Part shown: piece after piece, positions 5,745 through 38,774 of the stretch | Position numbering within the stretch: the first letter of the stretch is position 1 | Layout of the letters: each line of letters opens with the position of its first letter | Source of the DNA: an uncultured Bacteroidota bacterium | GTDB taxonomy: Bacteria; Bacteroidota; Bacteroidia; Bacteroidales; CG2-30-32-10 | Assembly (NCBI GenBank): GCA_903889915.1 | Contig: CAISZK010000128.1 | Coordinates: 1 to 43,839, forward strand | DNA: 43,839 nt | Direction of reading: 5' to 3' | The notes under the pieces: generated by a model | Told to the model about the DNA's origin: nothing | Databases searched by the model: none | What the model saw: the letters and a program-made list of their open reading frames with translations, nothing else | Made by a program: the position numbers and the translations under genes

Positions 5745-5837
5745 ATAATAGTCAATAGTCATTCGTCAATAGTCAGTAGTCGGTATGACAATTCAGAGCC
5801 GCAATGACCAATGACTTATGACTTATGACCATTGACT
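5745..5837. repeat. Imperfect palindrome of GTCAATAGTCATT-type words
   Basis: The left arm repeats GTCAATAGTC-type words, and the right arm repeats their complements (AATGACCAATGAC, TTATGACCATTGACT) around a short centre (about 5782-5805). It lies between the divergent ferritin and helical-protein genes. Related words recur at 9717-9835, 34634-34704 and 38773-38818. Confidence 0.6.
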
Positions 5838-6673: not shown

Positions 6674-6675
6674 AA

Positions 6676-6757
6676 ATTCCAAATTCAAAGTTCCAAATTC
6701 CAAATTCAAAGTTGGGCCGCCTTGGGACTTGGGATTTGGGATTTGGAGCTTGGGACT
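6676..6757. terminator. Long imperfect hairpin between convergent genes
   Basis: The left arm iterates AAATTCCAAATTCAAAG; the right arm iterates TTGGGATTTGGGA-type words complementary to it; the centre is GGGCCGCC. Position between two convergent stops (6673 and 6761) suggests a bidirectional terminator or transcript-end stabiliser. The iterated-word build is the same style as the other palindromic spacers in the window. Confidence 0.5.
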
Positions 6758-6760
6758 TTG

Positions 6761-7642
6761 CTAGCCTTTCAGGGCTTCGGCGCCACCAACGATTTCGAGG
6801 ATCTCTTTGGTGATGGATGCCTGACGGGCTTTGTTATAACTAAGCCGTAATTCTTTAAGCAAGGAGTCTGCATTGTCAGTAGCTTTATGCATGGCAGTCA
6901 TACGGGCGCCATGTTCGGCAGCTATGGAATCAAGAATAATTTTGTAAAACTGTATCTTGAGAGATTTGGGAATAAGCTCTGCAACTATTTGTTCTTTGTC
7001 CGGTTCATAGATGTAATCGGCAACCAATTTTTCTTTTCCTTTTACAGGCTGAGGTTTTAGAACAGGCAGAAATTGTTCATTCGAGAGGATCTGTACTGCT
7101 GCATTCTTAAACATGTTATACACAACCTCGATGTGGTCGTATTTACCATCTTTAAAATCTTTCATCAGTCTTTCAGCTATGGGAGCAACATTTTCAAATT
7201 TTGAAGAATCAAGGATGTGATGATTTGTATCAATTACATTGTATTTTCTCCTGGTAAAAAAATCAGCACCCATTTTACCGATGCAGAAAAGATCAAGGTT
7301 GCCGCTTTTGTTTATGTCAGCATATTTTGTACGGATGATATTTACAGTAGTTTTGATAACATTGCCATTGAAAGCTCCGCACAATCCCCTGTTGGAAGTA
7401 ACAACAATGATCAGCGCTTTCTGAATTTTTCTTTCTTTCGAATAAACATTATCCGATGAACTCAGACTTGCGCTAAGATTCTCAAGCAACTCTTTAAGTT
7501 TTCCGGCATAAGGCCGTAACTTTTGAATAGCATTTTGTCCGCGTTTCAGCTTGGATGCCGACACCATTTTCATGGCGCTCGTTATCTGCTGCGTTGACTT
7601 TACGGAGGCTATTCGTGTTCTGACTTCTTTTAAACCCGGCAT
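6761..7642 (-). CDS. atpG: ATP synthase gamma subunit
   Basis: The 293-residue central-stalk subunit of F1, which rotates inside alpha3beta3 and couples proton flow to ATP synthesis at the inner membrane. The start MPGLKEVRTRIASVKSTQQIT and the C-terminus YNKARQASITKEILEIVGGAEAL are the conserved terminal helices that form the rotor coiled coil. VVTSNRGLCGAFN in the middle is the family signature. It is the last gene of the leftward operon, 10 bp after the inserted four-helix-bundle gene, and normally would follow atpA directly. It ends at a palindromic spacer that probably terminates the operon. Confidence 0.97.
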   Translation of the reverse strand: MPGLKEVRTRIASVKSTQQITSAMKMVSASKLKRGQNAIQKLRPYAGKLKELLENLSASLSSSDNVYSKERKIQKALIIVVTSNRGLCGAFNGNVIKTTVNIIRTKYADINKSGNLDLFCIGKMGADFFTRRKYNVIDTNHHILDSSKFENVAPIAERLMKDFKDGKYDHIEVVYNMFKNAAVQILSNEQFLPVLKPQPVKGKEKLVADYIYEPDKEQIVAELIPKSLKIQFYKIILDSIAAEHGARMTAMHKATDNADSLLKELRLSYNKARQASITKEILEIVGGAEALKG

Positions 7643-7651
7643 AAAAGTAAT

Positions 7652-8127
7652 GTTAGTGGTTTGTTGTTTGTTGTTTGTTGTTGTCGCGGTTTCTAAACTT
7701 TTCTCCTTTGTATTCAGTTTTGTTCAGATAGCTAATAAGACTTCCGGTTTTGGAAATAATCTCATCTGCTATTCCATATAACTCTTTAAAAGTTTCTTCT
7801 GCTATATAATTCCAATCAAGTGCCCTGTATAGTTGAGATTGAACTTCATTACATGACCCTGTTGCGATGCCTAAAAAATTAATAAATTCTTTATTTCCAC
7901 CTCTCCCAAATCCTTCAGCAATATTATCCATGACTGATCCAATCGCATTTTTTATCTGTGCTTTGAGCCCAAAATCTTTTGCAAAATCACCGTTTGAAGT
8001 TATTGCAAAAACCCGGATACTGAGTTTTCTTGCCAGTTGCCAAATTTCAAGTTCTTCAAACTTTTTAATTGTTGCCATTGTATAAAATGTTTAGCGTAAC
8101 CACTAACAACAAACTACTAACAACAAA
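7652..8127. mobile_element. IVS-type insertion between atpA and atpG, bounded by inverted repeats
   Basis: GTTAGTGGTT at 7652-7661 and its exact complement AACCACTAAC at 8098-8107 lie on either side of the four-helix-bundle gene. Both arms carry further TTGTTTGTTG / CAACAAACTA words; the fuller arms match at about 18 of 22 positions. The block fills almost the whole space between atpA and atpG. Intervening sequences in bacterial 23S rRNA genes have the same build (a four-helix-bundle gene inside a stem). Whether this unit moves as DNA is inference. Confidence 0.5.
7653..8078 (-). CDS. Four-helix-bundle protein (23S rRNA-intervening-sequence family)
   Basis: A 141-residue protein of the S23/bIVS family (Pfam 23S rRNA-intervening sequence protein; TIGR02436). 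Hallmarks are FEELEIWQLARKLS at the N-terminus, LKAQIKNAIGSVMDNIAEGFGR (written here as the helix around residues 38-59), EFINFLGIATGSCNEVQSQL, and a final long helix. The family forms pentameric bundles; its molecular role is unsettled. It was first met as the ORF inside 23S rRNA intervening sequences. Here it sits inside the ATP synthase operon, in the same orientation, 49 bp after atpA and 10 bp before atpG. The C-terminal tail (RNRDNNKQQTTNH) runs into the repeat arm and is probably not part of the fold. Confidence 0.88.
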   Translation of the reverse strand: MATIKKFEELEIWQLARKLSIRVFAITSNGDFAKDFGLKAQIKNAIGSVMDNIAEGFGRGGNKEFINFLGIATGSCNEVQSQLYRALDWNYIAEETFKELYGIADEIISKTGSLISYLNKTEYKGEKFRNRDNNKQQTTNH

Positions 8128-9714
8128 CTATTTTATCGCGTATTTTGCTGACAGTTCTTTTGCTGTTTTTTCAAGAACGTTGATTACATCGTCAGTTAGT
8201 TGACCGCTTTTCAATGTATCCAAAGTATCCTGATGATGCAATTCAAGAAAATGCAAAAACTCTTCTTCAAAATCACGGATTTTATTTATTGGTACATTAA
8301 GGAGCAAACCTTTTGTTCCACAGTAAATGATAGCAATTTGTTTTTCAACTGACATTGGAGAATACTGGGGTTGTTTCAGAATTTCGACATTCCTCTTTAC
8401 TTTTTCCAATACAGCCATTGTAGCGGCATCAAGGTCGGAACCGAATTTTGAAAATGCTTCGAGTTCGCGGAAAAGCGCCTGGTCGAGTTTCAGTGTTCCT
8501 GCCACTTTCTTCATTGACTTTATCTGTGCATTACCTCCCACACGTGAAACGGAAATACCTACGTTGATAGCAGGACGGATACCTGAGTTGAACAGGTTTG
8601 TTTCAAGGAATATTTGTCCGTCGGTGATCGAAATTACGTTTGTAGGAATGTAAGCTGACACGTCACCTGCCTGTGTTTCGATGATTGGAAGAGCAGTGAG
8701 CGAACCGCCACCTTTAACCAAATGTTTTATTGAAACCGGAAGGTCGTTCATCTGTTTTGCAATCTCATCAGAAGAGATCACACGTGCTGCTCTTTCAAGT
8801 AACCTTGAGTGGAGATAAAACACATCACCGGGATAAGCCTCACGGCCGGGGGGACGACGAAGCAATAAAGATACTTCACGATAAGACACTGCCTGCTTTG
8901 ACAGATCGTCATAGATCACCAATGCCGGTCTTCCTGTATCTCTGAAGAACTCACCAATGGCAGCGCCTGTAAATGGTGCGTAAAACTGCATGGCTGCAGG
9001 ATAAGAAGCAGGAGCAGCAACTACAATAGTGTATTGCATGGCTCCATGATCTTCCAGTGTTTTTACAACATTGGCAATGGTAGATCCTTTTTGCCCAATA
9101 CCTACATAAATACAGTAAACAGGTTCTCCTTTATCAAAAAATTCTTTCTGATTGATGATGGTATCAATAGCGATAGCAGATTTTCCTGTCTGTCTGTCGC
9201 CAATGATCAACTCACGTTGTCCGCGACCGATAGGGATCATGGCATCAATAGGCTTGATACCTGTCTGCAATGGTTGGTTTACCGGCTGCCGGTAAATAAC
9301 TCCCGGAGCTTTTCTTTCGATAGGCATTTCATAAACCTCACCTGTGATGGGGCCTTTGCCATCTATAGGTTCGCCAACAGTATTGATTACCCTACCAAGC
9401 ATTCCTTCACCTACATTCACAGAAGCGATGAGGCCTGTACGTTTCACAATATCGCCTTCTTTGATGTGAGTAGATTCTCCAAGAAGAACCACACCTACAT
9501 TATCTTCTTCGAGGTTGAGCACAATGCCCTTCATCCCGTCTTTTACAAATTCAACAAGTTCTCCGGATTGAGCATTTGTAAGTCCGTAAATACGGCCTAT
9601 TCCATCACCCACCTGCAACACTGTCCCTGTTTCTTCAAGTTCAGATTCAAACTTAAAGCCTGATAATTGTTGTCTTAAAATTGCCGATACCTCGGCTGGT
9701 TTTATTTCTGCCAT
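8128..9714 (-). CDS. atpA: ATP synthase alpha subunit
   Basis: 528 residues, full length. It is the non-catalytic nucleotide-binding subunit of F1 and forms the alpha3beta3 hexamer with AtpD (not in this window). Walker A is GDRQTGKS at residues 172-179; [33 protein letters not shown] contains the Walker B strand and the alpha-subunit signature (cited in parts: LVIYDD, then [20 protein letters not shown]). SVSRVGG supplies the conserved arginine segment contributing the finger to the beta catalytic site. Located fifth in the leftward atp operon; the 119-bp gap to atpH is filled by a word-repeat palindrome, unusual in an operon where other genes abut. Confidence 0.98.
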
Positions 9715-9716
9715 AA

Positions 9717-9835
9717 CATTAAATTATTGTCATTTTACTTTGTGTCATTTATTGTCATTTGCTTTGCGTCATTTATTGTCATTTGCTTCGTGTTATTTTT
9801 TTAATGACTATTGACTAATGACTATTGACTATTTC
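9717..9835. repeat. Word-repeat palindrome between atpH and atpA
   Basis: Three units of about 24 bp (ATTGTCATTTGCTTTGCGTC and variants) are followed by AATGACTATTGACT repeated, complementary to GTCATT words of the left half. It can fold in the operon mRNA between atpH and atpA. It shares words with 5745-5837, 34634-34704 and 38773-38818 (GTCATTTGCTTCG is identical at 9777 and near 38778). Confidence 0.6.
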
Positions 9836-10887: not shown

Positions 10888-10985
10888 AATTTTTACTTTG
10901 TTTAAAGTTTAATGTTCAAAGTTTACCCCGTTGGATTTTATTCTACGAGGTTTAATGTTGTACAATCTGCAACAATAATAAAAGC

Positions 10986-33012: not shown

Positions 33013-33390
33013 AAACTCTGAATATTGTGTTTTTTCGCAAGCATAATCAGAAAAAGATATCTATCACTCATACATTTCGCTTTCTAAAAGACAAAAAGAT
33101 TACTATCATTACGATATTTTGCTAACAAAAAGACAAAAAGATTACAATCATTTTGACATTTCATTTACAAAATGATAAAAAGATTGCTATCATTTTTACA
33201 TTTCGCAAGCAAATTACCAGGAAGATTACTATCATTCTCACATTTCGCTTATAAAAAGACAAAGAGATTGCTATCATTTTATGATTTTACTTGCATAATG
33301 ACAAAAAGATAGCGATCATTATGGCATTTCATTTCGATAATGCAAATAAGATCTTGATCAATTTTGGTTTTTTATTGCATACTTACAACA
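33013..33390. repeat. Tandem array B: eight to nine degenerate units of exactly 42 bp
   Basis: The AGAT that opens each unit lies at 33055, 33097, 33139, 33181, 33223, 33265, 33307 and 33349: always 42 bp apart. The half-units share AGATTACTATCATT and, from position 22, TTCGCTTACAAAAAGACA. A weak ninth unit precedes them (33013-33054, only the second half recognisable) and the last unit is also weak. Substitutions are common, but no unit has an insertion or deletion. 42 is twice the period of arrays A, C and D. Confidence 0.85.
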
Positions 33391-37999: not shown

Positions 38000-38201
38000 T
38001 TTATCAATTTTAAATTGAAATTTTAATTTTTCTGCAAAATAAAACCATGCCTACGCCAAAAGATGTCGTGGTTAAAAATTATTTTGGATGACGATGATTT
38101 TTGGATTGGAAAATGAACAAAATGGATATTGCTAAAACACGTAATAGTCTGTATTTATTCAATTTAAACAAAACAACCCCCCATTTTACGAGATGTTTTA
38201 C

Positions 38202-38495
38202 TTAGTGAAACATCTATATTATTTAGTGAAACATCTGTATTACTTAGTGAAACATCTGTATCACTTTGATAAAACATGTGTATTCGTAACTGATAGGTTT
38301 GTTTCAGGTAGAAGTACATCTGTATTACTAAGAGAAACATTTGTATTCGTGAGAAGAACACCTCTACTACTTAATGATACGTCCGTTTTGCTTAGTGAAA
38401 CAGGTGTAAAGTTTAATGATACGTTTGTTTTAGTATGAGATAGGTTTGTTTTACTTAGTGAAACATTGCGAAGACTAAGTAAAACATCTGTAAAA
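38202..38495. repeat. Tandem array C: 14 units of exactly 21 bp
   Basis: Units begin at 38202, 38223, 38244, 38265, 38286, 38307, 38328, 38349, 38370, 38391, 38412, 38433, 38454 and 38475. The core is TTAGTGAAACATCTGTAT. The first three units are nearly identical; later ones alternate between GTGAAACAT and ATGATACGT forms. No insertion or deletion over 294 bp. Unit sequence is unrelated to arrays A, B and D. Confidence 0.9.
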
Positions 38496-38648
38496 ATCTG
38501 TTTGTACAGGCACTTAAATCCAACAAATCATTTGAAAAAGCATCTTCCCTATTCTAAAATTCTCATTATCCACAGAAAGGTGGTTGATTATCAATTTAGT
38601 TTCATCTTTAAAAGAGTAATAACAATCAGATAACAGGAGAAAACGCTA

Positions 38649-38774
38649 AATTTCCTTGCGAAAACGTAAAAATTCCTTTCGCAAATGCAAAGATTCCTCT
38701 TGTAAGGGTTGAAATTCCTTTCGTAAATGCTAAAATTCCATCCGTTAATGCTGTGATTCCAAAGTTGAACTGTC
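38649..38774. repeat. Tandem array D: six units of exactly 21 bp
   Basis: TTCC recurs at 38652, 38673, 38694, 38715, 38736 and 38757, always 21 bp apart. The core is AAATTCCTTTCGTAAATG; units 2, 4 and 5 are closest to consensus and the last is degenerate. It lies 154 bp after array C, with an unrelated unit sequence but the same period. On the minus strand one frame stays open and would encode N-F-x-x-Y-x-R heptads. Confidence 0.85.

Follow-up and report, generated by a model that had tools for sequence, protein, structure and literature searches.

The 4HB element between atpA and atpG

We analyzed the 43,839-nucleotide contig CAISZK010000128.1 (the window) of an uncultured Bacteroidota bacterium, whose atp operon carries a four-helix-bundle (4HB) gene between atpA and atpG. 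It is likely, with a probability of about 0.72, that this region is one copy of a mobile element of the intervening sequence (IVS) class, with gene-less derivatives resembling miniature inverted-repeat transposable elements (MITEs). The element would consist of a 4HB (S23) gene with inverted arrays of about five heptamers as its termini, inserted co-directionally in the stop-to-start gap between atpA and atpG.

The 4HB open reading frame (ORF; positions 7653-8078, minus strand, 141 amino acids) belongs to the S23/IVP family, matching both PF05635 (1.9×10−32; 112.1 bits against a cut-off of 33.8) and TIGR02436 (9.8×10−30; 103 bits against a cut-off of 24). On the same strand lie atpA upstream (8128-9714; TIGR00962) and atpG downstream (6761-7642; TIGR01146; start codon at 7640-7642). 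The initial annotation had described this gene as lying between atpA and atpG and framed by exact inverted 10-mers, which the profile matches and the sequence bear out: GTTAGTGGTT (7652-7661) and AACCACTAAC (8098-8107) are exact inverted copies. The unique 10-mer itself does not hold as the unit of this framing, because the arms are arrays of degenerate heptamers. The 5′ arm (8095-8130, minus strand) contains about five of them in the sense direction (TAGTTTG, TTGTTAG, TAGTTTG, TTGTTAG and TGGTTAC) and has the atpA stop codon TAG (8128-8130, minus strand) at its start, opening the first heptamer in phase with the others. The 3′ arm (7649-7687, minus strand), a heptamer array of the form AACAACA..., is the inverted complement of the 5′ arm; the last residues and the stop codon of the 4HB ORF are encoded within it, and it ends right before the atpG start codon. 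The 31-nt arms at 7652-7682 and 8098-8128, which contain the exact inverted 10-mers and flanking heptamers, are 81% complementary. The arm match at this locus is more than chance, because its score of 38 exceeds those of all 35 mismatched pairings of its own upstream flank (maximum 27) and the predicted transcript has a fold z of −3.98, with the arms paired in both the minimum free energy and the centroid structures.

The 4HB gene is a gain at the atpA-atpG site, since no 4HB gene was found between atpA and atpG in any of the 29 other genomes of the order in which the two genes adjoin; the reading of the gene as an insertion and not an old operon member thus stands. Most of these relatives have short atpA-atpG gaps. 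The gaps in the two nearest ones (atpG 78% and 73% identical) are 121 and 116 nt long and hold heptamer repeats but no gene, the nearest carrying an AACAAAC array at the empty site. A different small gene, acyl-CoA-binding protein-like, is found between atpA and atpG in three relatives (L031, L042 and L043).

The arms belong to the gene

The genome has seven PF05635 hits; inverted repeat arrays frame six of them, and the unit differs from one to the next. An inverted flank score of 28 or more is reached by 72% of 39 4HB genes from six related genomes, compared with 4% of 120 neighbouring ORFs (P = 2×10−17, Fisher's exact test), whereas direct repeats at the same genes are far less enriched (10% versus 3%). 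The same holds for a set of 80 named loci, in which 66% of 91 4HB genes have matching inverted flanks versus 3.2% of 472 ORFs (P = 9×10−37, Mann-Whitney U test). Five heptamers is the most frequent arm length on either side, although the rule by which arms were extended might have preferred certain lengths. The armed anatomy was also found in metagenome-assembled genomes (MAGs) assigned to Anaerolineaceae, Desulfosarcina, Syntrophaceae, KSB1, Chlorobiota and Methanophagales, and on plasmids of Nostoc, Pseudanabaena and Geminocystis. Single MAG contigs may be misbinned, a doubt from which complete plasmids and megabase Flavobacterium contigs are free. Examples of armed sites are the gap between two ribonucleotide-reductase genes and the one that separates cas6 from cas4. 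The latter case, on a Pseudanabaena plasmid (L266), places an armed 4HB gene inside a CRISPR-cas operon, and this cas6-4HB-cas4 arrangement may account for the 23S_rRNA_IVP genes sighted in cas loci (PMC3936711).

The heptamer unit of each element is common to its two arms and to closely related proteins. For protein pairs at least 60% identical, taken from different genomes and junctions, mean arm similarity is 0.419 versus 0.223 expected (0 of 5000 permutations), whereas dissimilar 4HB proteins have hardly more similar arms within a genome (0.215) than across genomes (0.208). The heptamer unit therefore tracks the protein lineage and not the genome, so that the arms and the gene form one element and stay together across moderate evolutionary distances. 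In a large clade, IPSNIAEG, the heptamers have the form nntnAG[AT], with an information of 2.61 against a null maximum of 1.77. In the clade of the window protein GTTT is favoured, which is suggestive only, as the information of 2.07 is within the null range. Because each element has its own heptamer unit, a search for other copies with the same arms, as originally envisaged, uses the wrong query. The pattern of the 10-mer followed by ATG has 20 matches in the genome, none of which, besides this locus, is on a contig with a PF05635 hit. We rejected the exact 10-mer as a marker of 4HB genes, the matches elsewhere being ordinary heptamer arrays or chance.

Purifying selection acts on the orthologous 4HB proteins, whose genes at the fadA|acd junction have a median ratio of nonsynonymous to synonymous substitution rates of 0.08 (54 pairs). 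The closest solved structures are 2gsc (1.6×10−9) and 2rld, with five chains each, and the Xanthomonas protein has been described as a homopentamer (PMC4990558). It is tempting to guess that one subunit corresponds to one heptamer.

Empty, gene-less and gene-bearing junctions

The atp operon had been regarded as a surprising place for such a gene, but operon junctions turn out to be its usual site: 78 of the 86 4HB genes at the named loci are co-directional with both neighbours, compared with 279 of 409 controls. At the fadB|fadA junction, the 30 Flavobacterium species compared have an empty site (0-5 nt), a gene-less heptamer hairpin (about 82-128 nt), a repeat of some other kind or a 4HB element (about 450-520 nt); these species are related, and the junction counts are not independent events. 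The fadB stop codon is TAA at four clearly aligned empty sites and TAG at sites filled with heptamers or a 4HB element. At the named loci, TAG is over-represented upstream of 4HB genes that have arms (34 of 63 versus 86 of 428), also after exclusion of fadB-like genes (22 of 47; P = 1.5×10−4), and the AGs of the heptamers repeat at offsets 7, 14, 21 and 28 from the upstream TAG. The fadB|fadA and fadA|acd junctions of Flavobacterium (L308, L313, L320, L298 and others) also host palindromic repeats unrelated to the heptamers, CCCCCTAACCCCC...GGGGGTTAGGGGG and GTCATTTCGACGAAGGAG.

Heptamer arrays are common well beyond the 4HB genes. In 604 kb of the genome, period-7 arrays occur at 22 per 100 kb. 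All other short periods lie at 0.5-3.5 per 100 kb, about sixfold or more below, with the exception of 14, a multiple of 7. About half of the inverted array pairs in the genome (16 of 30) are gene-less, and the units of these hairpins resemble the arms of the genome's own 4HB genes to a degree that only 11 of 2000 random sets reach; three cultured genomes have too few hairpins each to test this resemblance separately. One such hairpin in the window (AAATTCC / GGGATTT; 6674-6758) lies between convergent genes and has a unit like the arms of another 4HB gene in the genome, and a second one (5747-5836) has another unit (AATAGTC / CAATGAC). The frequent unit GTCATTA has no matching 4HB gene in this genome. 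Four other genes of this genome between heptamer arrays (L208, L211, L226 and L207) were considered and rejected; they look like ordinary genes among independent arrays, their functions being read from the sequence.

Comparison with known repeats and IVSs

The origin and role of rRNA IVSs and of the S23 ORF have been open since the early 1990s, and a role of the ORF in mobility has been discussed (PMC4990558). In the Coxiella 23S rRNA IVS, the S23 ORF sits in a loop closed by a 28-bp terminal stem, tandem GACAGAT heptamers stand right before the ORF, the IVS is excised by RNase III, and the ORF is reported to decay (PMC4990558). The initial description of the atp element as of the rRNA IVS type is supported. 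Like the 23S IVSs of Coxiella and Leptospira, it carries a 4HB ORF in the sense direction within a loop closed by a terminal inverted repeat and is about 430-490 nt long, and like that of Coxiella it has heptamer repeats before the ORF. It is not itself a 23S IVS, because it lies between protein genes and not in rRNA; a simple motif search found the 23S signature in none of the fetched loci, and Rfam gave sub-threshold chance matches only. The atp element also differs in having heptamer arrays on both sides, and the 4HB family here is under purifying selection in contrast to the Coxiella ORF with its reported decay. The atp element shares the parts of the Coxiella IVS and probably works like it, the link to 23S-located IVSs being drawn from the Coxiella paper (PMC4990558).

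The element recalls the REPIN/RAYT system of repetitive extragenic palindromes (REPs), in which inverted hairpin units also occupy intergenic gaps, together with a protein family that would act in trans, and come with or without a gene. In contrast to that system, the atp element contains no Y1 transposase, heptamers are absent from the one Y1 locus inspected, and the unit is a degenerate heptamer array that varies between lineages instead of a fixed REP. As in MITEs, there are short inverted-repeat units that lack a gene and resemble the copies with one, but no target-site duplication or parental transposase was found for the heptamer elements. With their tandem period of 7 nt the arms further resemble the intergenic heptameric STRR and TAACTGA repeats of cyanobacteria and Bacteroidota, which, unlike them, are described as direct repeats of one fixed unit, with no mention of 4HB genes (PMC4679880). 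We found no literature linking 4HB genes outside rRNA to heptamer arms, in a search that was thin on subscription journals. The recurrence of the gene with its arms at gene junctions in many bacterial phyla suggests that the odd inserts in rRNA genes are part of a large, largely unrecognised family of mobile elements. The anatomy, lineage-specific heptamers, presence/absence patterns among related species and gene-less derivatives make the proposed mobility directly testable in cultured Flavobacterium species, and offer an origin for some of the 7-base repeats that abound in Bacteroidota genomes.

Proposed mechanism and alternative explanations

In the mechanism we favour, a 4HB homopentamer would recognise its own heptamer arms, with five subunits for about five heptamers per arm, probably on a folded-back single strand. 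Recognition would promote copying or insertion of the element and of its gene-less, MITE-like derivatives, the strand-cutting enzyme being supplied by the host or by another element. Its survival in essential operons would be due to its occupying no more than the gap between the genes and leaving the stop codon intact; RNase III may also cut the stem in the mRNA as it does in 23S rRNA, which would be a tolerance mechanism. More tentatively, and with odds that we put somewhat below even, there might be a class of transposase-less mobile elements that spans phyla, its pentameric 4HB protein recognising co-evolving five-heptamer arms and moving its own gene and gene-less hairpins between junctions, rRNA IVSs being the best-known special case.

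Several observations weigh against mobility of this kind. The seventh PF05635 hit in the genome (L015), which is divergent, has no arms, and roughly one in three 4HB genes does not reach the arm threshold. Between phyla, arm similarity at protein identities of at least 52% is not above chance (835 of 5000). Support for mobilisation in trans comes from few hairpins. The association with the stop codon is not universal, the fadA|acd junction having mostly TAA, and TAG enrichment is not significant in the window's own order. Finally, the empty junctions show no obvious target-site duplication, element ends are not sharply defined, no nuclease motif was found, and no within-species movement was seen.

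Alternatively, the element could act at the RNA level, the arms pairing in the atp mRNA and RNase III cutting the stem, so that atpA and atpG are insulated or differentially processed. The strong predicted fold of the stem agrees with such a role, already raised in the initial annotation as processing or as isolation of atpG translation, as do the cutting of 23S IVS stems by RNase III (PMC4990558), the co-directionality with the operon, and the AG-rich, strand-asymmetric 5′ arm, with AG at period 7 on the sense strand. However, the arm mismatches show no excess of G.U in the sense strand (125 versus 178 A.C), contrary to the prediction for a sense RNA under selection, although a composition bias of the sense strand complicates this wobble test. 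An RNA device alone also leaves unexplained why arm sequence follows protein lineage and why related species leave the same junction empty. We regard this explanation as unlikely, and RNA processing, because the mismatches are not biased to G.U, as possible but secondary; it is compatible with mobility. Somewhat less probable still is that IS200-like or REP-type Y1 transposases mobilise the hairpins, with the 4HB protein as an accessory or specificity factor. Hairpin pairs have a precedent in REPIN-RAYT, and Y1_Tnp is present in 41 of 44 genomes with 4HB genes versus 6 of 16 without (2 of 10000 in a size-stratified permutation), but this correlation may merely reflect repeat-rich genomes. Y1 was not detected in three 4HB genomes, one of them 97% complete with four 4HB copies, and the single Y1 gene inspected (L199) has no heptamer flanks.

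That the 4HB gene merely lands in pre-existing heptamer arrays would fit the abundance of such arrays without the gene and the AACAAAC array at the empty site of the nearest relative. This is improbable given that the 4HB copies of one genome have unrelated arms, that related proteins at other genomes and sites have similar ones, and that arms frame 4HB genes in phyla far from Bacteroidota. Avd, the partner of the reverse transcriptase in diversity-generating retroelements, is a four-helix-bundle protein of related fold, and the 4HB protein might play a similar part. We rejected a reverse transcriptase partner, and a retroelement-like origin is very improbable: the window's genome has no RVT_1 match despite its seven 4HB hits, and over 60 genomes reverse transcriptases are not associated with 4HB genes. 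An old ATP-synthase operon member with an assembly role would be consistent with the position and co-direction of the gene and with nothing else; it is refuted for the sampled order by its absence in all 29 relatives, the family occurs at unrelated junctions everywhere, and the chance that it applies is negligible.

Other repeats

At the Y1 locus L199 (4867-5250), the transposase gene is followed by several copies of a REP-like palindromic repeat, AATCCC..TTCGGGATT. The atp operon of the window carries several heptamer or tandem repeats, with more arrays in other gaps of the operon (9724-9833 and 10899-10925). Longer tandem arrays are found at 33041-33352, 38194-38402 and 38641-38752, with periods of 42/84/126 and 21 nt, all multiples of 7.
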